Source of the DNA: a virus
IMG/VR virus record: IMGVR_UViG_3300017727_000167
Span: 1 to 23,452 of that record
DNA: 23,452 nt
Direction: 5' to 3' (one strand)
Part shown: positions 1,851-23,267 of the stretch, one piece after another
Numbering within the stretch: position 1 is the first letter of the stretch
Layout of the letters: the number at the start of each line of letters is the position of its first letter
Position numbers and translations under genes: made by a program
The notes under the pieces: model-generated
Told to the model about the DNA's origin: nothing
Seen by the model: only the letters and a program-made list of their open reading frames with translations
Databases searched by the model: none

Positions 1851-3061
1851 TTAATAAAACTGTCTAAACTTGCAGTAGCTTCAGCAAATTCACGACTTCT
1901 GTTTAAATTGTTTTGTCGAACAAACTCAGAATGAATAACATCAAGTTTACCATCAAGATAATCTTTAACACTCTGTGCCATATCTGTAGCAGTTGTTACG
2001 GGAACATTCTGACAAATCATATTTAAATTTTTCAATCCGCCCTGTAACTCAAAGTCACTTGGCATCTTCATAATAGATAGGGCTTCACGTATTGTAATAT
2101 ACCTATCTTCGTCGGGGTGTGCTAATTGTTTAGCAAAGTGACCAACGAATGCTGATGTGTGGCCTTTACCTAGTTCAACGCATCGCCTCATTATATTACC
2201 ACCACCTTTTAATTTGTGATACATTCTCATTGCAGAAGCTGCTGGTTTTTCTAATCCCTTTTCAGCAAACCATTCTGATGCTTGTTTAAATCCATTTACA
2301 CCACGATTGTCTTCTACCCAATTAATAGGATTTGTTGACTTCTTAAGTTTCTTATAAAATTCTTGGTGAGTAATTCCACCTTCCATTTCTTCAAGTACAT
2401 ATCGATACCAAGGGTCTTCACTTGGCTTTGTTTTATTGACGACTTCATTCATAGGGTCATCATCTGAAACAAATGCGTTGCGTATACATTCTTCAATAGG
2501 TTCTTTTTCTCTACTAAAGTAAGGAAGCTGCGGACAATGTTTATCATTCCAAAAGAAGTAAAACGATCGATTACGTACTTGACCTAGTCCGTGAAGAGTT
2601 GATTTTGTCTTATAAACAGTAAATGTATATCCAAACTTTTCTCCAATACGACGTAGCTTTTCTACTACGGGTTTACCCATATTTCCATAAAGACCAGGAG
2701 CATTCTCACCCCATAGTACCTTCGGACGTAGTTCTTTAAGAACGTGTGTGGATGATTCTAACATCCAGTCATTTGCCGCATTATCTGCAGAGGCTGAAGT
2801 ATTCAACATTGAAAGACCAGCACAAGGGCAAACTGAATTGACAACATCAACGTGTTTAACGTATTGCATGTTTTGATTATCTTCGTCTAGTAGATAATAT
2901 GGAACGGTGTTATCATAATAATTTAATAGTTGAGAATCATTTGCTTTAAATCCACTATAGGATAAAATGTATTCTGGCTTTTTACCAAATGCATTTTGCA
3001 TTGCGATTGTTTCACCACCAATAAGTGGTATGATTGAGGCATATGTATAATCTTTAGGCAT
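1847..3061 (-). CDS. DNA cytosine C5-methyltransferase homologue with atypical cofactor motif
   Basis: Most C5-MTase motifs are present: motif IV with the nucleophile (CPCAGLS, Cys80), motif VI (GENAPGL, Glu119-Asn120), motif VIII (QVRNR, 161-165), motif IX (RYITIREALSIMKMPSDF, 320-337) and motif X (QNVPVTTATDMA, 351-362). The fold and cytosine chemistry are therefore well supported. Motif I is odd. Where the family has DLFAGxGG, this protein has SIIPLIGG (9-16), lacking the F-x-G part, and the acidic residues that normally follow (as in SEID) are replaced by SYSG. The length of 404 residues is normal, with a long variable region at about 170-315. The ATG overlaps the cytidylyltransferase stop by 8 bases. 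It is the last gene of the putative hypermodification string. It may methylate residual cytosines, or use a changed cofactor or substrate. Confidence 0.88.
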   Translation of the reverse strand: MPKDYTYASIIPLIGGETIAMQNAFGKKPEYILSYSGFKANDSQLLNYYDNTVPYYLLDEDNQNMQYVKHVDVVNSVCPCAGLSMLNTSASADNAANDWMLESSTHVLKELRPKVLWGENAPGLYGNMGKPVVEKLRRIGEKFGYTFTVYKTKSTLHGLGQVRNRSFYFFWNDKHCPQLPYFSREKEPIEECIRNAFVSDDDPMNEVVNKTKPSEDPWYRYVLEEMEGGITHQEFYKKLKKSTNPINWVEDNRGVNGFKQASEWFAEKGLEKPAASAMRMYHKLKGGGNIMRRCVELGKGHTSAFVGHFAKQLAHPDEDRYITIREALSIMKMPSDFELQGGLKNLNMICQNVPVTTATDMAQSVKDYLDGKLDVIHSEFVRQNNLNRSREFAEATASLDSFIN

Positions 3062-3467
3062 TGGTCACTCTTTCTCTTAATTCACTTGTGGAAAAGGAAT
3101 GTCTGCGTTTATTATAATGAATATTACAAAGTCCTTTTCCAGTGTGCTCTTTGTCTTTATATTCTTCACCAACAATTCTAATGTCGGGGTTTATTGTTAA
3201 AATCATATCGATCAAATCTTGTTCACTTTCAAATGGTATTACTTCGTCAACATATTGACAAGAAGAAACTTGAATGTATCGTTCGAACACCGATTGAACT
3301 GGTCTATTTTTTGAATCTGGTCTATCTTTTGTCGGGTCTACTAACAATCCAACTACAAGATAATCACAAAGTGACTTAGCTTCTTTTAGCATAACTATAT
3401 GACCCGAATGAAATAAATCAAAGGTAGATGCAGTTAGTCCTACTTTTCGTTTTTCACTTTCTCGCAT
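3054..3467 (-). CDS. Cytidylyltransferase-like nucleotidyltransferase (TagD/GCT family)
   Basis: The family couples a phosphorylated small molecule to CTP (for example glycerol-3-phosphate to CDP-glycerol) with release of pyrophosphate. Visible signatures are TASTFDLFHSGH, holding the HxGH motif, then GLLVDPTKDRP and, near the end, RRHSFSTSELRERV, matching the ISTTxxR-type motif. I chose the ATG at 3467 (MRESEKRKVGL), which has a good Shine-Dalgarno AAAGGA 4 bases upstream. An ATG at 3503 would add 12 residues but overlaps the upstream gene by 64 bases. The product is 137 residues, normal for single-domain GCT enzymes. It sits directly after the HAD-kinase gene, suggesting a phosphorylate-then-activate pathway. 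The real substrate (polyol, amino alcohol or sugar phosphate) cannot be read from sequence. Confidence 0.88.
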   Translation of the reverse strand: MRESEKRKVGLTASTFDLFHSGHIVMLKEAKSLCDYLVVGLLVDPTKDRPDSKNRPVQSVFERYIQVSSCQYVDEVIPFESEQDLIDMILTINPDIRIVGEEYKDKEHTGKGLCNIHYNKRRHSFSTSELRERVTNA

Positions 3468-4528
3468 AATTCCTTTATTAAATTTAAAATTTTCAATTGC
3501 CAATCTTTATTGGCATAGGGGTACATTCTGCAAAGATTTGCGATTGCGTGTACCTGTATTGTCTTTATATTTATGCCTTGATAAAGATGATTTTTTACAA
3601 GGTTTCTTTCAATAACTCGAGGGTTTATAATTTCTCTTTTAAGAGCGTATGACGCATAGTACTTTGAAAAGTCAATAACCCAAGAAGAATATAAACCAGG
3701 TTCTTGAATAGGGTCAATAAAGTAAACTTCATCGCCATAGCTATCACTCATAATATTTTCAAATGAGGCATCGCCATGACCAAATGTATATGGAGTATTT
3801 GGATATTCTTTTCTCATACGCTTATCAAGAAAATCATCTAACTCTTTGTTATCTATTCTGCCTTTACATCTTTCCATATAGTCTCTATAAAGAGCAACTT
3901 GCATTTTTGGTTCTTGATAACCTTCAAGCGGTACTCGACCATCAAACTTCATAATTTTTTGTAAGATAGCATCAATACTACCATAATAGTCTGAACCATA
4001 CGGGTGAAGTCTTTCCATTCTAATTGTATTACCAATTACGGAACGAATCTTTGGTACTTTAAATCCTCGGTCTTCTGCTGCTTCATACCATTCAATTACT
4101 TTACCTGGATATTCGTTGTGAACTTTTACCACATCGCCTGATGCATTATCAATATAAACTCTGTCACCACTCCAGCCCTCAAGCTCTTCTTGTCCAAAAG
4201 ACTTTACAAAATCATCTGGTGTTATACCTTTGTCATCAATGTAATAGAGTCCTAGCTTTTTCTGAAAACACAATGAAGTATATTTTACTAAATTGTTATC
4301 TAACCAGTCTTCAATTTGTGGTCGGTATGTTTTTTCTGCCTCTTCTCGATTTTTGCATGAGAGTGTACCTCGTGCAGTTACTATATGAATATCCCACCCT
4401 TTATTATAAAGGTTGTTTAGTTTATCAATCAAAGGTCGATTGGGTAATGCATTATACCAATCACGCTTTTTAGTAAACGCAATCGTATCATCAAAATCTA
4501 CCACTAATGTTTCTTCCCATTTAGCCAT
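3440..4528 (-). CDS. Fusion of HAD-family phosphatase and aminoglycoside/choline-kinase-like kinase
   Basis: This is a two-domain protein of 362 residues. Residues 1 to about 115 form a small HAD hydrolase: VVDFDDT (nucleophile Asp11, Asp13), the motif II Thr in IVTARG (Thr51) and YYIDDKG (Asp98-Asp99). Residues from about 120 to 362 form an APH/choline-kinase-like fold: a lysine in DVVKVH, the catalytic loop FGHGDASFENI (His251, Asp253, Asn258) and the metal-binding YFIDPI (Asp272). Catalytic residues of both halves look intact. It overlaps both neighbours (the glycosyltransferase-like gene by 8 bases, the cytidylyltransferase by 28). Known gene pairs such as licA-licC join this kinase type to a cytidylyltransferase in surface-glycan biosynthesis. 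Here the neighbouring hydroxymethylase suggests DNA decoration instead; that is inference. Confidence 0.85.
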   Translation of the reverse strand: MAKWEETLVVDFDDTIAFTKKRDWYNALPNRPLIDKLNNLYNKGWDIHIVTARGTLSCKNREEAEKTYRPQIEDWLDNNLVKYTSLCFQKKLGLYYIDDKGITPDDFVKSFGQEELEGWSGDRVYIDNASGDVVKVHNEYPGKVIEWYEAAEDRGFKVPKIRSVIGNTIRMERLHPYGSDYYGSIDAILQKIMKFDGRVPLEGYQEPKMQVALYRDYMERCKGRIDNKELDDFLDKRMRKEYPNTPYTFGHGDASFENIMSDSYGDEVYFIDPIQEPGLYSSWVIDFSKYYASYALKREIINPRVIERNLVKNHLYQGINIKTIQVHAIANLCRMYPYANKDWQLKILNLIKELCEKVKNEK

Positions 4529-8636: not shown

Positions 8637-8713
8637 TGGTACTCCGAGCAGGACTTGAACCTGCGACCAATGGTTTAGAAAACCATTGCTCTATCCAGCT
8701 GAGCTATCGGAGC
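8637..8713 (-). tRNA. tRNA-Arg (anticodon UCU)
   Basis: This is a full cloverleaf on the minus strand. The acceptor stem is GCTCCGA with TCGGAGT (one G-T pair). The D arm contains AGCTCAGCTGGATAGAGC. The anticodon arm is ATGGT-TTTCTAA-ACCAT with anticodon TCT, and the T arm contains GGTTCAAGTCC. CCA is encoded at the 3' end (8639-8637). It reads AGA and AGG codons, common in AT-rich phage genes. The first 23 bases overlap the end of the upstream CDS. Confidence 0.96.
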
Positions 8714-13356: not shown

Positions 13357-13380
13357 AGTAATACTATATCAGATATTACT
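13357..13380 (-). other. Hairpin at the 3' end of the Hsp20 gene
   Basis: AGTAATA and TATTACT form a perfect 7-bp stem with a 10-base loop, spanning the hsp20 stop codon. No U-run follows, so it is at best a weak terminator or an mRNA 3' protection hairpin. The rest of the gap to gene 43 holds only the polymerase promoter. Confidence 0.4.
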
Positions 13381-13849
13381 CAGTTAGTAAAGACTTTTTT
13401 TTAGTTTTCTTACTATTAATTTCGATAGTGCGTGGTTTCTTTTCTTCTGGCACTACTCTATCAATAGTAACTTTAAGTAAACCATTTTCGAACTTTGCAC
13501 CTTGTACTACAAGATATTCACCAAGGGTAAAAGACTTTTTAAACTTTCGAGTCGCAATACCTTTTGCGCGGTATTCTCTTTCGTCTTCTCCCATATCACC
13601 AATAATAGTGAGTTGGTCATCTTCTACTTTAACGTCAATCTTATCTTCAGTATAACCCGCTAATGCAAGTTCAATGATATAAGACTCTTCTCCGTCTTCG
13701 TTTTTATCGTAAACAACATTATGTGGTGGATAAGTATCCTGTGAATGTTGTAGTTGACGTTCGACTCTATCGAACATCGGTTGAAATCCCAAGATTCTTG
13801 GGTCGTTAGTTAAGGCATCGAATTGCGCCAAGATATGATTAATTGTCAT
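13376..13849 (-). CDS. hsp20: Small heat-shock protein, Hsp20/IbpA type
   Basis: This is an ATP-independent chaperone that holds unfolding proteins. It has 157 residues: an N-terminal arm (LAQFDALTNDPRILGFQPMF), an alpha-crystallin domain from about residue 40 (YIIELALAGYTEDKIDVKVE, LTIIGD, ATRKFKKSFTLG) with the typical GLLKVTIDR, and a basic tail. sHSPs of this kind are common in marine T4-like phages. The gene has a strong Shine-Dalgarno site (GAGGAG) 8 bases before the ATG and a T4-type late promoter about 70 bases upstream, behind a terminator. It is therefore expressed late, fitting a role in virion assembly rather than early host stress. Confidence 0.93.
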   Translation of the reverse strand: MTINHILAQFDALTNDPRILGFQPMFDRVERQLQHSQDTYPPHNVVYDKNEDGEESYIIELALAGYTEDKIDVKVEDDQLTIIGDMGEDEREYRAKGIATRKFKKSFTLGEYLVVQGAKFENGLLKVTIDRVVPEEKKPRTIEINSKKTKKKSLLTE

Positions 13850-13886
13850 ATTATTTTTCTCCTCTTTAAGCGAGTTATTGTTGTAT

Positions 13887-13912
13887 TGATGACCTCACCA
13901 TGAGCGCCATCA
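13887..13912 (-). promoter_or_regulatory. 5' UTR hairpin ahead of Hsp20
   Basis: TGATG and CATCA form an outer 5-bp stem. After a small internal loop, CTCA-TGG-TGAG forms an inner 4-bp stem. The element lies between the late promoter and the Shine-Dalgarno site. It could stabilise the mRNA or respond to temperature, but it does not itself cover the ribosome-binding site. Confidence 0.35.
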
Positions 13913-13916
13913 GTAT

Positions 13917-13924
13917 TATTTATA
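13917..13924 (-). promoter_or_regulatory. T4-type late promoter for hsp20
   Basis: An exact TATAAATA on the minus strand, about 70 bases before the hsp20 ATG and directly after a terminator hairpin. This is the consensus recognised by the gp55/gp33/gp45 late system in T4. Confidence 0.82.
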
Positions 13925-14721: not shown

Positions 14722-15473
14722 TTATAATTTTTTTCTTTTTTTATATCAAATATTAGATTTTCAAGCCCTCTCCAACAATCTGAACCTTCACTTCTGTTTG
14801 GTAATCTATAAAAAGGGTTTCTCTGTTCACGTGTGTTTGCGCTATAACACTTATGTAAGAAAAAATCAATGTCTTTTCCTAAGTATAAATTTAAACTTGT
14901 TAATCTGTCTGTAGCAAAATGGTGTAACAAATCTTTATGCTCTAAAATAAAAAAGTACTTTTTAGGAATAACAACAAAAGCATCACCAATAAAAAGAGTT
15001 TGGGGTTCATTGCCTAGATAATGTTTTTTGTTGTTCGGGCCCTCATGAGATTGGATTGGATGAGGATACATAATTTTATCTTTAAGCTTAAACTCTTCTA
15101 TAAATTTATCTTTTAATAATCCGTCAATTCGACAAATAAACAGAAAATCATAATCTTCAATTTGAGTGTTTTGATTTATTATATCTATTGTATAATTTGC
15201 AATTATTCGTGTACCTTGTTTTGGGTATTCACTAAATAATTCTTGATGTTTTTTGTCATCTATAAAGTTCGAACATATAAGGTGGTTTTGATATAACGAT
15301 ATTAACTCTTTTTCATATAAAGTTTTATAAGAGTTTATTAGAACATCAATCTTATAACCTTTTAAAGATTCTAAAAGCTTTATGTGAGATTGGCTTATTT
15401 CTTTTTGGACATTTAAGCTATTTTCTTTATTCCTAAAAGCTTGGCCATAAAAAACAAATAAACCTTTTCTCAT
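14718..15473 (-). CDS. Possible glycosyltransferase-like protein, 251 residues
   Basis: It starts RKGLFVFYGQAFRNKEN after the initiator Met. The stretch DYDFLFICRIDGLLKDKFIE (about 125-144) resembles the R-x-D region of nucleotide-sugar-binding proteins, and IGDAFVVIPKKYFFI is a plausible second core strand. These points suggest a GT-A-like or sugar-related fold, but no family is secure. The gene is visibly more A/T-rich than its neighbours, with many Lys, Ile, Asn and Phe codons, consistent with recent acquisition. It overlaps the parvulin stop by 4 bases. Its stop region (NYK, TAG) contains the late promoter TATAAATA used by what follows. Confidence 0.45.
   Translation of the reverse strand: MRKGLFVFYGQAFRNKENSLNVQKEISQSHIKLLESLKGYKIDVLINSYKTLYEKELISLYQNHLICSNFIDDKKHQELFSEYPKQGTRIIANYTIDIINQNTQIEDYDFLFICRIDGLLKDKFIEEFKLKDKIMYPHPIQSHEGPNNKKHYLGNEPQTLFIGDAFVVIPKKYFFILEHKDLLHHFATDRLTSLNLYLGKDIDFFLHKCYSANTREQRNPFYRLPNRSEGSDCWRGLENLIFDIKKEKNYK
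14719..14726 (-). promoter_or_regulatory. T4-type late promoter
   Basis: An exact TATAAATA, overlapping the stop of the 251-residue gene. It would transcribe the frame-broken gene and then the 80-residue protein at 14528. Confidence 0.72.
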
Positions 15474-15748
15474 GTTCTATTGGTAACTACGATTAAGTGA
15501 TATCCAAAGTCTGTTTTAATTGGACCTTGAACTTTATTTATAGGAGCTGACCAAATAACTTTATCAAATTCTGGTACCATCTGGCCAGGGCCAAAGGTTC
15601 CTAAATCTCCGCCTCTAGTACCACTTGCGCATTGTGAATATTCTGGTGCCAATACTTGAAGAGGTGTTCCGGTCTTAATCTTTTCGATTAATTGATTACA
15701 CATTTCTTCAGTCGACACTAAGATGTGTTGAGCTGATGCTTGAGCCAT
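15470..15748 (-). CDS. Parvulin-type peptidyl-prolyl cis-trans isomerase
   Basis: This is a single-domain PPIase that speeds prolyl isomerisation in protein folding. The whole 92-residue chain matches bacterial PpiC: AQHILVSTEEMCNQLIEKIK, YSQCASGTRGGDLGTFGPGQ, MVPEFDKVIWSAP and FGYHLIVVTNRT line up with E. coli PpiC (93 residues), including the active-site His of QHIL and the FGYH His. There is no signal peptide, so it acts in the cytoplasm. It is probably derived from a bacterial host. It follows the SAP/CDGSH gene with a one-base overlap. With Hsp20 nearby it suggests phage control of virion-protein folding. Confidence 0.95.
   Translation of the reverse strand: MAQASAQHILVSTEEMCNQLIEKIKTGTPLQVLAPEYSQCASGTRGGDLGTFGPGQMVPEFDKVIWSAPINKVQGPIKTDFGYHLIVVTNRT
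15535..15542 (-). promoter_or_regulatory. Possible late promoter inside the parvulin gene
   Basis: TATAAATA lies 62 bases before the 251-residue gene. It is within coding sequence, where the motif could occur by chance in AT-rich DNA. Confidence 0.4.
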
Positions 15749-16113
15749 TACTTAACTACTACAAACTTTGGTTTTTTAGAAACAACTTTACCACCATATT
15801 GGAAAGTTACTACCTTTGCTGCTCCTTCAGTTTCAAATTCAGTATTCAAAATCTGTGTATAATTGTAAGCTTTTGAATGACCATCAGTTGCTGGAACAAA
15901 CTCATATATTACTTCAGTTTCTTCTTGTACTTTTGTCTTAGCATGTGAACCATCACAGAATCCATTTTCATCTTCTGTATTACCACACTTACATAAGTAA
16001 GCTTCTAGTTCTTCAACTAAGATTGCCTTTGACTTGCGTCTGTCTAGTTCCACGCCTTTTTCACGACCCAGTTCTTCTAATTTCTTTTTTGATAGTTTGT
16101 TTAGGTTTGTCAT
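15748..16113 (-). CDS. SAP-like plus CDGSH iron-sulfur-type protein
   Basis: The protein has 121 residues in three parts. Residues 1 to about 38 (LNKLSKKKLEELGREKGVEL and then RRKSKAILVEELEAYL) look like a SAP/Rho-N-type helix-extended-helix nucleic-acid-binding fold. Residues 39-60 contain CKCGNTEDENGFCDGSHAK, matching the CDGSH motif that binds a 2Fe-2S cluster through three Cys and one His. The remainder (YEFVPATDGHSKAYNYTQIL) is a beta-rich tail. The CDGSH spacing is shortened and lacks the usual Pro, so cluster binding is likely but unproven. It lies between regA and parvulin. A Lys-rich N terminus next to a redox centre suggests a DNA- or RNA-associated redox protein. Confidence 0.72.
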   Translation of the reverse strand: MTNLNKLSKKKLEELGREKGVELDRRKSKAILVEELEAYLCKCGNTEDENGFCDGSHAKTKVQEETEVIYEFVPATDGHSKAYNYTQILNTEFETEGAAKVVTFQYGGKVVSKKPKFVVVK

Positions 16114-16559: not shown

Positions 16560-16751
16560 TTATTTATAAATATCTCGGTCTTCACTGTTTAGCCAATCGA
16601 GGCTTTGGCCAGCATTAACATCATCTGCCACCCTTGCTAATATTGAGTCTAAAGCTTTAATAGTTTCTTTACGTCCTCTGTCTCTACCAAGATACCACCC
16701 AGCAGCAACAAAAAATATATTAGATAATAATACTAAGATTTTATATTCCAT
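16560..16751 (-). CDS. Small N-terminally anchored membrane protein, 63 residues
   Basis: Residues 2-22 (EYKILVLLSNIFFVAAGWYL) form a membrane segment, followed by GRDRGRKE and an amphipathic helix (ALDSILARVADDVNAGQSLD). Its start overlaps the gp62 end by 19 bases. The last codons (Tyr-Lys-stop) contain the late promoter for regA. The family is not recognised. Confidence 0.68.
   Translation of the reverse strand: MEYKILVLLSNIFFVAAGWYLGRDRGRKETIKALDSILARVADDVNAGQSLDWLNSEDRDIYK
16561..16568 (-). promoter_or_regulatory. T4-type late promoter before regA
   Basis: An exact TATAAATA ends 18 bases before the regA ATG, so any leader is very short. It overlaps the stop codon of the preceding small gene. 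Confidence 0.6.
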
Positions 16752-19360: not shown

Positions 19361-19368
19361 TATTTATA
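19361..19368 (-). promoter_or_regulatory. T4-type late promoter for gp45
   Basis: An exact TATAAATA in an AT-rich run, 27 bases before the gp45 ATG and 9 bases after the terminator stem. Confidence 0.8.
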
Positions 19369-19442: not shown

Positions 19443-20645
19443 TTAAGGTGTATTCATTTCCTTTTCATAAAGAGACTCTGCCAGTTCTTCTGGCGTTGGG
19501 TCAACTGTTTCGGTCTCATCTCCATAGTTGACATTTTCGTCAACCTTAGAGTAGAGGTCAAGGAATGCTTCCTTGGTTTCTTCGTCGAATCGACTGATGC
19601 AGAGAGCGATACTCTTCATTCGGTCACCGAAGATTTTAAAAGTCTTAGTTATGTGGCATAACCGGCGAGTTGAGATTACCTCATCAACTCCGTCAGCTTC
19701 GAAGGTCTTTCGAATAACATTTGACCATGCGACCAATTTCTTTAGGAAATCTTCGTCGACTGAATCAAATTTCAACATGTGAGCCATGACAATCTTTTCC
19801 TCAATATTTGGAGCAGGGAAAGGTTGGTCAATCGCAGCGACAAATCGTTCTAAGAACGCATCGTCAATAATTGAAGCGGCAGAGTAACGTCCGTCATCTG
19901 AACCTCGTCCTTTGGTATTCGCAGTGGCAATCACGTTGAACCCTTCGGCAGGAGTGATAACTTCACCAGTCTTTTTAAGAAGAACTGGGTTACCCTCAAG
20001 AACGCCTTGAAGACACATGATCTTGTTAGTAGCTCGGTCAATCTCGTCAATCAAAAGAATTGCTCCTTTTTCCATTGCCTTGATAACCGGACCTTTTTGG
20101 AAAACCGTTTCTCCGTTAATCAAACGGAAGCCACCGATCAAATCGTCTTCGTCCGTTTCTGGTGAAATCTGAGCTCGGACATATTGACGTCCCGTATCAG
20201 CGCAGACTTGTTCGACCATCATAGTCTTACCATTACCAGATGGACCTGAAATATAAATCGGGTAAAACATCTTAGACTTTACCACCTTTTTGATGGTATT
20301 GAACTCACCCCACTTGATGTACTCTGGTACTTTAGATGGGACATAAATCTCATCGTCAGTCACAGATTGTACTGAGTGATAATTTACCTTTGTGGCATTT
20401 GCCATTGCGGTCACTGGAATTTCAGAAACCGAAGCCGAAGCTGGAACTGAATCGAACGAGTAGTAACCTCGTTTTGAACCGGCAGACATTGACTTGTAAA
20501 CTACATTGTAGCCTTCTGAGTCTTTCATGCCAAGAGCTTTAGCTTTAGCAATGATATCTTTACGAGAGTGTTCACCTGAACCCATCTCGGATGCCAGTTT
20601 TTTCGCATTGGCGGCGATGACTTGTTGTCTTTGTATATTATTCAT
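19443..20645 (-). CDS. MoxR/CobS-type AAA+ ATPase
   Basis: The protein has 400 residues. The N-terminal 100 hold a small helical region (SRKDIIAKAKALGMKDSEGY) and a Ser/Ala linker. The AAA+ core has Walker A SGPSGNGKT (133-141), Walker B ILLIDEID (196-203), sensor 1 VIATANTKGRG and the arginine finger FLERF. The C-terminal tail is acidic. Proteins like this are often labelled cobS in marine phages. MoxR ATPases usually act with VWA partners as metal-insertion or remodelling chaperones, and the partner is the next gene upstream. Its leader has AAGGTTAG 7 bases before the ATG, the same core as its partner, and it has its own consensus promoter. A cobaltochelatase role is unsupported here, since no other B12 gene is seen. 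Confidence 0.9.
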   Translation of the reverse strand: MNNIQRQQVIAANAKKLASEMGSGEHSRKDIIAKAKALGMKDSEGYNVVYKSMSAGSKRGYYSFDSVPASASVSEIPVTAMANATKVNYHSVQSVTDDEIYVPSKVPEYIKWGEFNTIKKVVKSKMFYPIYISGPSGNGKTMMVEQVCADTGRQYVRAQISPETDEDDLIGGFRLINGETVFQKGPVIKAMEKGAILLIDEIDRATNKIMCLQGVLEGNPVLLKKTGEVITPAEGFNVIATANTKGRGSDDGRYSAASIIDDAFLERFVAAIDQPFPAPNIEEKIVMAHMLKFDSVDEDFLKKLVAWSNVIRKTFEADGVDEVISTRRLCHITKTFKIFGDRMKSIALCISRFDEETKEAFLDLYSKVDENVNYGDETETVDPTPEELAESLYEKEMNTP

Positions 20646-20690
20646 AATCTAACCTTTTTTTGTTATGTATTCCTCAATTGTTATAATAGT

Positions 20691-20719
20691 ATTATACGAT
20701 AGTCGCAGCCCAATGTAAA
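20691..20719 (-). promoter_or_regulatory. Strong sigma70-type promoter for the AAA+ gene
   Basis: TTTACA (20719-20714), a 17-base spacer and TATAAT (20696-20691). From TTTTGTTC through TTTACA to TTGGGCT it is identical to the promoter at 23167-23195, and TCGTA recurs at the -10 edge. Confidence 0.9.
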
Positions 20720-20847
20720 GAACAAAAATGCTTTATTTTAGTAAAAAATGCATTTTTTTTCAGCCTCGAGAATGCCCTCAATGCATCTCGTGATACTGTT
20801 CCTGTCTTATCTATTTGGCTATTCATATAAAGTATGTTCTCGGGCAT
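20692..20847 (-). CDS. Possible small basic protein, 51 residues
   Basis: The ATG at 20847, 8 bases after the VWA gene stop, opens a frame reading MPENILYMNSQIDKTGTVSR, then RDALRAFSRLKKNAFFTKIK, to a TAA at 20694-20692. CAGG lies just before the ATG. The first 35 residues look protein-like. The last 15 run through the promoter of the AAA+ gene and may be accidental. This is the only candidate gene in the 209-base gap. Confidence 0.35.
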   Translation of the reverse strand: MPENILYMNSQIDKTGTVSRDALRAFSRLKKNAFFTKIKHFCSLHWAATIV

Positions 20848-20854
20848 CCTGGTC

Positions 20855-23140
20855 TTATCCGATAGTTTCAGCGAATTTTCTCATTAGGATTCGTACGTTT
20901 TTCGAAGAGTTGTGATGTTTCGCAAATTCTCTCGCCAACTTGTTCTGAGAGTTCTTTGACTCGGCCATGCTCTTTCCGCTCTTGTCTTGAATGTCAGTAA
21001 GGAAGTCACCCTCGTCTTGAATATTAACATTGGTGTCAAGAACATAGTAGGAGCTGTACCCCATAGTTGAATTAATGGAGAAGTGTTTTTCATTTCTCCA
21101 AGTTTTCATATCTTCCCTGCTTTGAGCATTTTGTTCTGAGTAGCTAAGTGAGTTCTTATTCGAACCTCGTCTTGCATGTTGAATACGATGTTTTGCAGCA
21201 CTCTTTGACTCAGGAAGAAAGAAGCCAATCATATTGACTTTGTAATGCTCAGCGATAATTTTGTTGTAAGATTCTGTTCTCACATTGTAACCACTACCTA
21301 CTTTGTACATCTTGCCATCTAGTTGAAGAGCAGGACCTGCTCCTCCACGTTTGTCGAATCTACCTTCAAAATCAACATTATGCGAGTCACCATCTGTTAG
21401 AGTAATTATGTTGAGTTTTTGAACTCTGTGGTTTGCTCTGAAAGATTTGATAATGTGTCCCATATTTGCAAGAGTCGAATCAAGTGGAGTACCGCCTAAT
21501 TGCTCTTTAGTGGGAATGTACCATGCTCCTCCGTAATAATGACCTCTTGAATTGGCTTGCATGAATAAGAACTCTCGAGCCTCTGCCTTTTCGATCTTTT
21601 TCATCTTGCTTGAAAGAATTTCATTGTGTTGAATATCATGTATGTTGATCTCGCCATCAAATGATGAATCTCGCTCATCGTCATATTCTCTACCCGAGGT
21701 GAATGAAATAACTTGGTAAGGAACTCCGACTTTGTCGCAGAATTCTGTAAGATTCAATAACTGAAGAAGAACTCCACTCAACACTTGACTCATTGAACCG
21801 GAATAGTCAACGAGAAAAATCATTCCGTGAGACTTGGCATCTGCTAGAGATGTAACTGAAGAAAAGATTTGATCATCGTATTTGTACTTGTGAAGTTTGG
21901 TCACATCGATTGAACCAGTTCGTGATTCTTGAGCTCGAGCATATTGCCATGCAGCCTTTCTTTGTTCGAACTCTCTTACGAGGATGCCAACTTTTTTCTT
22001 AGAGCTTTTCTTGAACTTGGCATAATCATCAGAGTTTTCAACTCTAGATGTTGCATAATTACAATGGTCATGGGCTTCTTCAACTTTAGCGATATGCTCT
22101 TTTCGATTTGAAAGAACCTTTTTGTAATCATTGAAATTTTTGTAGAACTTGTCTTTTCTAGTAGGGTGAATAACATAACGACCTTCATAAGACTCGCCCT
22201 CGTCTTTTTCAAGACTTGAATTAAATTTTTCTTGAGTCTCACTTTTGAACTCTTCCTGCTCACCCATTGAAGCTTCGTTACCGCCACCTTCAGCTTCGGT
22301 CTGATTGAAGTCTTCTAAATGCTCGGTTTGCTTTGCCAACTCTTCGGCCAATTTTTCCATTGCATCTTCAAGGTCTTCGTCAGTCACTCCTGTTGAAGAG
22401 TTACCCTCGTCAGACTCGCCGGAATCTTCTGATGTAGCTGAATGTGATTCTGTTCCGTCATCTGAAAAATCATCGTCCTCGTAGTTACCTGTATCAGAAG
22501 GGTCGTCAGATTCTTGAGAATCATCAGTAGAAGGTTTTGACATTTGGTGATCGCCAGACTCATCTTCTTCTAGCTCTTCTTTTTCTTTCTGACTTCTTTC
22601 AAGAACTTCGTCATAAAGAGCCAAGATGTCATCAAATGATTTGGCATTGTATGCCTTGTTGTAAATCTCAGTTTCTTCGTCATTTAAAGGAATGTCGACA
22701 ATTGAACCGACTTTAGCATGAAGATTTAATCGGTCAAGAAAAATGAGATCAGCAGGGTCTTTCTCAACGTTGAAAAATCCGTCGTTCCATAGCTCGGTAT
22801 ATCCTTGTTTGAAATAACGAGGAAGACCTGCGTATGTTTCTTGAATCATACGTTCAATACGAATATCTTCTAAAATGTTAATGATGTCGAAGTGTTTGTA
22901 CTTCTTTCTAAAATCTTCGTCCCACTCAGGAGTATAAAGAGCATGTCCGACTTCGTGGCCAAGAAGCATGTCATAAACCGACTTGGATTTGTCACTCCAG
23001 TCTGGTAGACCAAGTACCCGATTCTTAACGTCGAAATAGGCGGTCTTGTAATTTCCGTGATTGACTTGAATATTTTCTCGAGCCAATAATTTACCGAGAG
23101 CCGAGCGACTCTCTTTTTTCATCAATAATGTATCTGTCAT
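20855..23140 (-). CDS. VWA-domain protein with HExxH metallopeptidase-like motif (CobT/ViaA-like)
   Basis: This is a large soluble protein, 761 residues from the preferred ATG at 23140 (GAGG 8 bases upstream; an ATG at 23155 would add 5). Numbered from the 23155 ATG, it has GHEVGHALYTPEW (66-78, HExxH) with NILEDIRIE (93-101) as the likely third ligand, a gluzincin-like arrangement. A long acidic Ser/Asp/Glu linker (about 190-325) and helices follow. Then comes AWQYARAQESRTGSIDVTKL (402-421), typical of CobT/ViaA proteins, and a VWA domain with MIDAS FLVDYSGSM (Asp450, Ser452, Ser454) and TLTDGDSH. VWA partners bind targets for MoxR ATPases. It is the first gene behind its promoter, followed by the MoxR gene. 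Target and peptidase activity are unknown. Confidence 0.87.
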   Translation of the reverse strand: MTDTLLMKKESRSALGKLLARENIQVNHGNYKTAYFDVKNRVLGLPDWSDKSKSVYDMLLGHEVGHALYTPEWDEDFRKKYKHFDIINILEDIRIERMIQETYAGLPRYFKQGYTELWNDGFFNVEKDPADLIFLDRLNLHAKVGSIVDIPLNDEETEIYNKAYNAKSFDDILALYDEVLERSQKEKEELEEDESGDHQMSKPSTDDSQESDDPSDTGNYEDDDFSDDGTESHSATSEDSGESDEGNSSTGVTDEDLEDAMEKLAEELAKQTEHLEDFNQTEAEGGGNEASMGEQEEFKSETQEKFNSSLEKDEGESYEGRYVIHPTRKDKFYKNFNDYKKVLSNRKEHIAKVEEAHDHCNYATSRVENSDDYAKFKKSSKKKVGILVREFEQRKAAWQYARAQESRTGSIDVTKLHKYKYDDQIFSSVTSLADAKSHGMIFLVDYSGSMSQVLSGVLLQLLNLTEFCDKVGVPYQVISFTSGREYDDERDSSFDGEINIHDIQHNEILSSKMKKIEKAEAREFLFMQANSRGHYYGGAWYIPTKEQLGGTPLDSTLANMGHIIKSFRANHRVQKLNIITLTDGDSHNVDFEGRFDKRGGAGPALQLDGKMYKVGSGYNVRTESYNKIIAEHYKVNMIGFFLPESKSAAKHRIQHARRGSNKNSLSYSEQNAQSREDMKTWRNEKHFSINSTMGYSSYYVLDTNVNIQDEGDFLTDIQDKSGKSMAESKNSQNKLAREFAKHHNSSKNVRILMRKFAETIG

Positions 23141-23166
23141 ATTTGCTAACCTCATTTTGTATCTAT

Positions 23167-23195
23167 ATATTACGACATCATTAGCCCAATGTAAA
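23167..23195 (-). promoter_or_regulatory. Sigma70-type promoter for the VWA gene
   Basis: TTTACA (23195-23190), a 17-base spacer and TAATAT (23172-23167). It shares the 21-base upstream block and TTGGGCT with the AAA+ gene promoter. The expected start near 23160 gives a 20-base leader with GAGG. Confidence 0.82.
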
Positions 23196-23267
23196 GAACA
23201 AAATGACTAGAGATGCATTTTATTTTTTAGCTTTAAAGCTATATACCGCAGAGGTTTACACTAAACT

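Follow-up and report, generated by a model that had tools for sequence, protein, structure and literature searches.

Marine T4-like phages are known to carry, among their core genes, a pair annotated as cobS and 'peptidase'. The cobS gene has been used as a community marker (PMC9983427), surveys count it among the auxiliary metabolic genes for vitamin B12, and the cyanophage 'peptidase' has been regarded as a mistaken CobT (PMC8651126). Both gene families are therefore already known (core in cyanophages), and the architecture has been described once before, in 2021, when a MoxR protein and a vWA protein with an N-terminal metallopeptidase were reported in group 2.2 jumbo phages and virion assembly was proposed (PMC7824862). 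Here we analyzed such a pair, a MoxR-type ATPase gene and a VWA gene at the right end of a piece of T4-like marine phage DNA of 23,452 bp (IMG/VR record IMGVR_UViG_3300017727_000167; the whole piece is called the window). We favor, with moderate confidence, the reading that the two genes form one early or replication-phase motor of the NorQD kind with a zincin-bearing cochaperone, which probably cleaves or recognises a segment of a host or phage protein complex and does not act on the corrin ring. The features on which this reading is built are as follows.

19443..20645, minus strand: gene of a MoxR-type AAA+ ATPase of 400 amino acids (PHROG 249, labelled cobS / porphyrin biosynthesis), recognised by its motifs and family matches
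20855..23140, minus strand: gene of a VWA/zincin-like protein (PHROG 459, 'peptidase'), 761 amino acids from the ATG at 23140; the reading frame is open to an ATG at 23155 (766 amino acids)
22943..22957, minus strand: codons of the HExxH motif (H67-E68-V-G-H71), invariant
22853..22876, minus strand: codons of ILEDIRIE (residues 94-101), of which D97 covaries with HExxH across phage lineages
21794..21808, minus strand: codons of the DxSGS motif (D450-S454) in the metal ion-dependent adhesion site (MIDAS) of the VWA domain; T556 and D588 complete the site
23166..23203, minus strand: promoter repeat upstream of the VWA gene, with -35 TTTACA (23195-23190), -10 TAATAT (23172-23167) and a 17-nucleotide spacer
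20690..20727, minus strand: promoter repeat upstream of the ATPase gene, with -35 TTTACA (20719-20714), -10 TATAAT (20696-20691) and a 17-nucleotide spacer (11/12)

Residues of the VWA protein are numbered in its 766-amino-acid form. The start at 23140 is better supported than that at 23155, because a GAGG stands upstream of it and because, in the relative L004, a start codon is missing at the position of 23155 whereas AGGTTAGCAAAT-ATG is shared.

The first-pass annotation had pointed to GHEVGHAL (H67, E68, H71) and a downstream ILEDIRIE (94-101) in the VWA protein as the marks of a zinc site, and we found both motifs as described. In the first scan, whose search peptides lay outside the HExxH motif so that its count is the unbiased figure, HExxH was kept in 39/39 loci gathered without selecting for the motif; because of this invariance the HExxH of the VWA protein is not due to chance. 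The pattern of the second viral scan contained GHE and that of the Rhizobium scan NIVED, so the HExxH and D97 counts from these two scans are biased. In the wider alignment (71 sequences, 34% mean column identity), H67, E68 and H71 were invariant in 71/71, and N93, E96, D97, R99, I100 and E101 were invariant in the T4-like relatives. Moreover, HExxH was present in 5/6 other phage lineages at very low identity, its carriers being the SSU5, Rhizobium, CRP-810, ICP2 and Gordonia proteins and that of an E. coli relative of SSU5. Across the aligned lineages, all proteins with HExxH had Asp at position 97 and those without it (nickie-like phages and CobT) had Ser or Gln there, while E96 and E101 were retained in both HExxH-less lineages. 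We regard D97 as the best candidate for the third metal ligand, because it covaries with HExxH, and ranked E96 and E101 below it, as both persist where HExxH has been lost.

The AlphaFold model of the N-domain was confident (predicted local distance difference test, pLDDT, 88.9; predicted template modelling score, pTM, 0.83), with strands at 30-34, 40-42 and 47-51 followed by the HExxH helix (58-74) and a helix bearing the second motif (89-107). Its ten top PDB matches were zincin metallopeptidases without exception, ArdC (first), selecase, abylysin and jannalysin among them (E 0.08-0.4, probability 0.84-0.97), and in a viral structure library it matched many CobT/VWFA phage proteins, those of the haloarchaeal viruses HHTV-2 and HCTV-2 included, followed by SprT and M48 peptidases. 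At the sequence level, profile comparison relates the N-domain of the window protein to that of the CobT-like SSU5 VWA protein (probability 96.5%, E 9e-10), and the part of the SSU5 protein around HExxH (residues 75-140) matches PHROG 459. The invariant HExxH and these matches of the modelled fold support the suggested zinc site, and we infer zinc binding and proteolysis by the N-domain. Two observations weigh against this reading: the PDB matches of the N-domain are weak one by one (no E below 0.05), and nickie-like Pseudomonas phages (L048, L166-L168) keep the pair, yet in them HExxH has given way to SEISK/SEVSK and the D97 equivalent is gone as well. The zinc-less nickie lineage shows that not every such pair needs the zinc site, so that a non-proteolytic or metal-insertion role is conceivable.

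The proposed MoxR-VWA architecture was borne out, with an intact MoxR AAA+ ATPase beside a VWA protein whose MIDAS is complete. Walker A GPSGNGKT (134-141), Walker B ILLIDEID and ERF mark the ATPase as a complete MoxR/CbbQ-type AAA+ protein, its matches to AAA_5 (E=1.6e-21) and CbbQ_C (E=4.5e-5) place it as an intact ATPase of the dynein-related/MoxR group, and it matched PHROG 249 at 2.7e-108 over residues 81-373. Midasin as its closest kin (PDB E 5e-49) was rejected, since several AAA domains of a single chain add up to that score. The VWA protein matched PHROG 459 over its full length (1e-159, residues 12-765), and no Pfam or NCBIfam model recognised it; it consists of an N-terminal zincin-like domain (about 18-203), an acidic disordered linker (about 202-325), long helices (about 344-412), the VWA domain (about 440-710) and a C-terminal helix (734-765). 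D450, S452, S454, T556 and D588 of the MIDAS were invariant in the 71 aligned sequences. Sequence searches of the PDB found no relatives, whether the query was the VWA protein, its alignment or the N-domain, and returned low-complexity or chance matches only; the significant structural matches of the full-length model included the NorD VWA bound to NorQ (9qh6_G, E 1.4e-4) and the MDN1 MIDAS (8ql1_C, E 2.4e-4), and the predicted VWA fold resembles the VWAs that partner AAA+ proteins.

Indeed, the two genes travel together. Wherever a fetched locus extended 1.2 kb or more beyond the VWA gene, it also contained the ATPase gene (103/103). A search of a phage collection matched 463 records with the VWA query and 570 with the ATPase query, and the tallies of Synechococcus (365), Cyanophage (61) and Prochlorococcus (24) phage records were the same for both. 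Of the two findings that the first-pass annotation had named as able to refute it, an HExxH not conserved in homologues and an ATPase gene that usually occurs without the VWA gene, neither was made. The genes are also adjacent, in either order, in the unrelated phages SSU5, Rhizobium RHph_Y2_17_1, Pseudomonas nickie, Vibrio ICP2, Gordonia Woes and Roseobacter CRP-810; the CRP-810 protein as a query turned up no further relatives. SAR11 phage HTVC008M carries the pair, as do E. coli/Klebsiella phage-plasmids, and the SSU5-type VWA gene occurs in hundreds of enterobacterial plasmid records. In addition, the isolate assembly of Nonlabens xiamenensis 1Q3 contains a T4-like phage contig of 188 kb (L130, NZ_RMVE01000006.1) with VWA, ATPase, gp45 and gp44 genes, which suggests a carried or co-sequenced phage. 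Another T4-like contig, L129, shows the reversed order, with ATPase before VWA.

All recognisable genes of the window, among them homologues of uvsX, gp43, hsp20, regA, gp44 and gp45, lie on the minus strand. Isolates have the order gp47-gp46-peptidase-cobS-gp45-gp44, and the neighbours of the pair (gp46/47, gp45, gp44, and gp43 or DNA polymerase/primase genes) make a replication gene setting. Just upstream of both genes we found a 38-nucleotide repeat, its copies 79% identical, which contains the exact 17-mer GTTCTTTACATTGGGCT at 23183-23199 and 20707-20723 and nowhere else in the window (chance expectation 0.07 matches even allowing 3 mismatches). The first-pass annotation had claimed two strong promoters; each gene does have a promoter of early type, but because the sigma-70 match is 11/12 for the ATPase gene and 9/12 for the VWA gene, the former is strong and the latter moderate. 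We also surveyed upstream regions across loci (160 nucleotides for the VWA gene), where the sequences are related and the counts not independent: the T4 late motif TATAAATA was present in 0/100 and a sigma-70-like site in 54/100 (4.2 expected) upstream of the VWA gene, and upstream of the ATPase gene the numbers were 0/61 and 46/61 (3.5 expected). For comparison, hsp20 had the late motif in 15/18 and sigma-70 in 1/18, and gp43 had the late motif in 0/12 and sigma-70 in 10/12, a large contrast between genes of the same phages. The pair is probably expressed together with the replication genes, because of the sigma-70-like sites, the missing late motif and the contrast with hsp20. The exact promoter 16-mer gave 17 scattered matches in IMG/VR and no general rule.

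13376-13924, minus strand: Hsp20 gene, with the T4-type late promoter motif TATAAATA at 13917-13924

This late motif occurs 8 times in the window (2.7 expected), 6 of them on the coding strand, and several copies stand shortly upstream of starts, including those of gp45 (19361-19368) and regA (16561-16568); a late promoter at regA is unexpected.

The machine we propose would be a ring assembled from the MoxR AAA+ ATPase. We infer that the VWA protein would dock on this ring through its C-terminal VWA domain, that its MIDAS metal site would grip a partner protein, and that the target would most likely be a host or phage protein complex handled in takeover or DNA replication. Cycles of ATP would twist or pull the gripped partner, as in NorQ-NorD (PMC13036017, PMC9976466), and the N-terminal zincin-type module (H67, E68 and H71, with D97 the likeliest third ligand) would probably cleave the segment exposed by the motor, or at least recognise it via bound zinc.

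A cobaltochelatase explanation takes the pair for CobS-CobT, which would borrow the host CobN and raise B12 for nucleotide synthesis, the 'peptidase' being a misannotated CobT (PMC8651126 and the papers that treat cobS as an auxiliary metabolic gene). The distant homology behind it is true: the ATPase matches the CobS model TIGR01650 (59 bits) and PDB CobS (E=4e-15), and the related SSU5 VWA protein matches Pfam CobT (2e-37) and CobT_C (2.5e-112); CobN-type proteins are also present in a Synechococcus genome. However, the TIGR01650 score of 59.3 bits is far below the equivalog cut-off of 558.55, and the CobT models TIGR01651, PF06213 and PF11775 gave no match to the window VWA protein. True CobT has neither HExxH nor D97, both kept in the phage proteins; in a marginal alignment that agrees with the Pfam relation, the solved CobT (9uka) has RGLGDSMALRQ in place of HExxH and no D97. 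Moreover, the pair occurs in HTVC008M, a phage of SAR11, in the T4-like contig of the Nonlabens isolate, in whose genome a CobN search gave no match, and in the E. coli/Klebsiella phage-plasmids. E. coli does not synthesise B12 de novo. SAR11 is auxotrophic for B12, as are 99% of marine Flavobacteria (PMC9296465). The presence of the pair in phages of hosts without de novo B12 synthesis (SAR11, E. coli) therefore argues against the B12 reading, which we consider very unlikely; the failed CobS/CobT family tests and the non-B12-making hosts agree with the earlier warning that the cobS label misleads.

Virion assembly, as proposed for jumbo phages by analogy with the archaeal ATV tail (PMC7824862), would make the pair a chaperone-protease acting late in infection to remodel and process structural proteins. 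The architecture is as in the jumbo-phage pair, MoxR-VWA pairs are assembly chaperones, and phage heads are processed proteolytically, but no late promoter precedes either gene (in 100 and 61 loci, respectively), compared with 15/18 for hsp20 nearby, and T4-like heads have their own prohead protease. The location of the pair in the replication module, its sigma-70-type promoters and the absence of a late promoter thus argue against a purely late role, and we regard this one as rather unlikely. Alternatively, the pair could be a chaperone that puts metal into a phage or host metalloenzyme (e.g. ribonucleotide reductase), the metal site of the N-domain serving delivery or recognition rather than as a peptidase. 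The best-studied MoxR-VWA pairs do insert metals (NorQD iron, CobST cobalt; PMC13036017) and replication-phase expression would suit a nucleotide enzyme; yet the conserved catalytic-type Glu of HExxH and the zincin-like fold exceed the needs of metal delivery, and no particular metalloenzyme gene was seen linked beside the pair, which makes this role improbable. A counter-defence role, with the zincin cleaving or remodelling a protein of host defence, would fit the early promoters and the N-domain's best fold match in the PDB, the antirestriction protein ArdC. However, these genes are core, syntenic and conserved across a large phage family, unlike variable anti-defence islands, and the defence-family search (PADLOC) gave faint ATPase matches only, none noteworthy, so that we give this explanation hardly any weight. 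The evidence as a whole sides with the metallopeptidase reading and, via the promoters, against a purely late role. Further, we suggest, as a possibility on which we lean slightly to the doubtful side, that the phage 'CobT' set (PHROGs 459, 1576, 17276, 5298) is one ancient class of early AAA+-driven zincin proteases, of which the bacterial cobaltochelatase CobT would be a degenerate offshoot that lost its zinc site. If so, the 'cobS auxiliary metabolic gene' of surveys would not be a B12 gene but would encode the motor for a protease used in host takeover or replication.

Elsewhere in the window, weak Pfam hints and reading of the translations gave several further features.

8637-8713, minus strand: tRNA-Arg (TCT) gene, the only Rfam match in the window
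3054-4528, minus strand: a cytidylyltransferase-like protein and, overlapping it, a HAD/phosphotransferase-like fusion (from weak Pfam hints), which might form a small cassette for surface modification
15748-16113, minus strand: a small protein with CKCGNTEDENGFCDGSH, which by reading alone resembles a CDGSH iron-sulfur motif behind a SAP-like N-terminus
15470-15748, minus strand: a 92-amino-acid protein that by reading alone resembles a parvulin (PpiC) peptidyl-prolyl isomerase

Beyond the known families, our analysis contributes an intact zincin domain that unites the CobT-like families of phages, the covariation of D97, the survey of early promoters and the case that the hosts make against the B12 label. 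Should the pair be a motor-protease, ecological readings based on B12 would be wrong, and a highly abundant phage machine would have another target. The residues for a direct test are H67, E68, H71, D97, D450 of the MIDAS and the Walker residues, and Pseudomonas phage nickie offers a natural zinc-less variant.

Among known systems, the Kyanoviridae PHROG 459 'peptidase' and PHROG 249 'cobS' (cyanophage core; T4-GC146 and T4-GC150 in P-SSM2) are alike in families, order and neighbourhood, and the window VWA protein, at about 30% identity to the isolates, shows no structural difference. The group 2.2 jumbo-phage pair (PMC7824862) has the same domain architecture, compared by published description only, but our promoter data do not suit the purely late assembly role proposed for it. 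CobS-CobT of the aerobic cobaltochelatase are distant homologues of both subunits, and the N-domain helix of CobT retains the E96/E101-type positions; they differ in that CobT lacks HExxH and D97, that the window proteins score far under the family cut-offs, and that the phage pair occurs with hosts without B12 synthesis. The bacterial DUF2201_N / DUF2201 proteins (putative metallopeptidase and VWA-like) share HExxH followed by N-x3-D in one member (L163) and a VWA-like C-terminus, but they are shorter and gave no significant profile match among the few sequences compared. NorQ-NorD of nitric oxide reductase maturation (PMC13036017, PMC9976466) is alike in its MoxR ATPase, its C-terminal MIDAS VWA, its N-domain and its disordered linker, whereas the N-domain of the phage protein has the putative zincin site and the pair would act on a different substrate.

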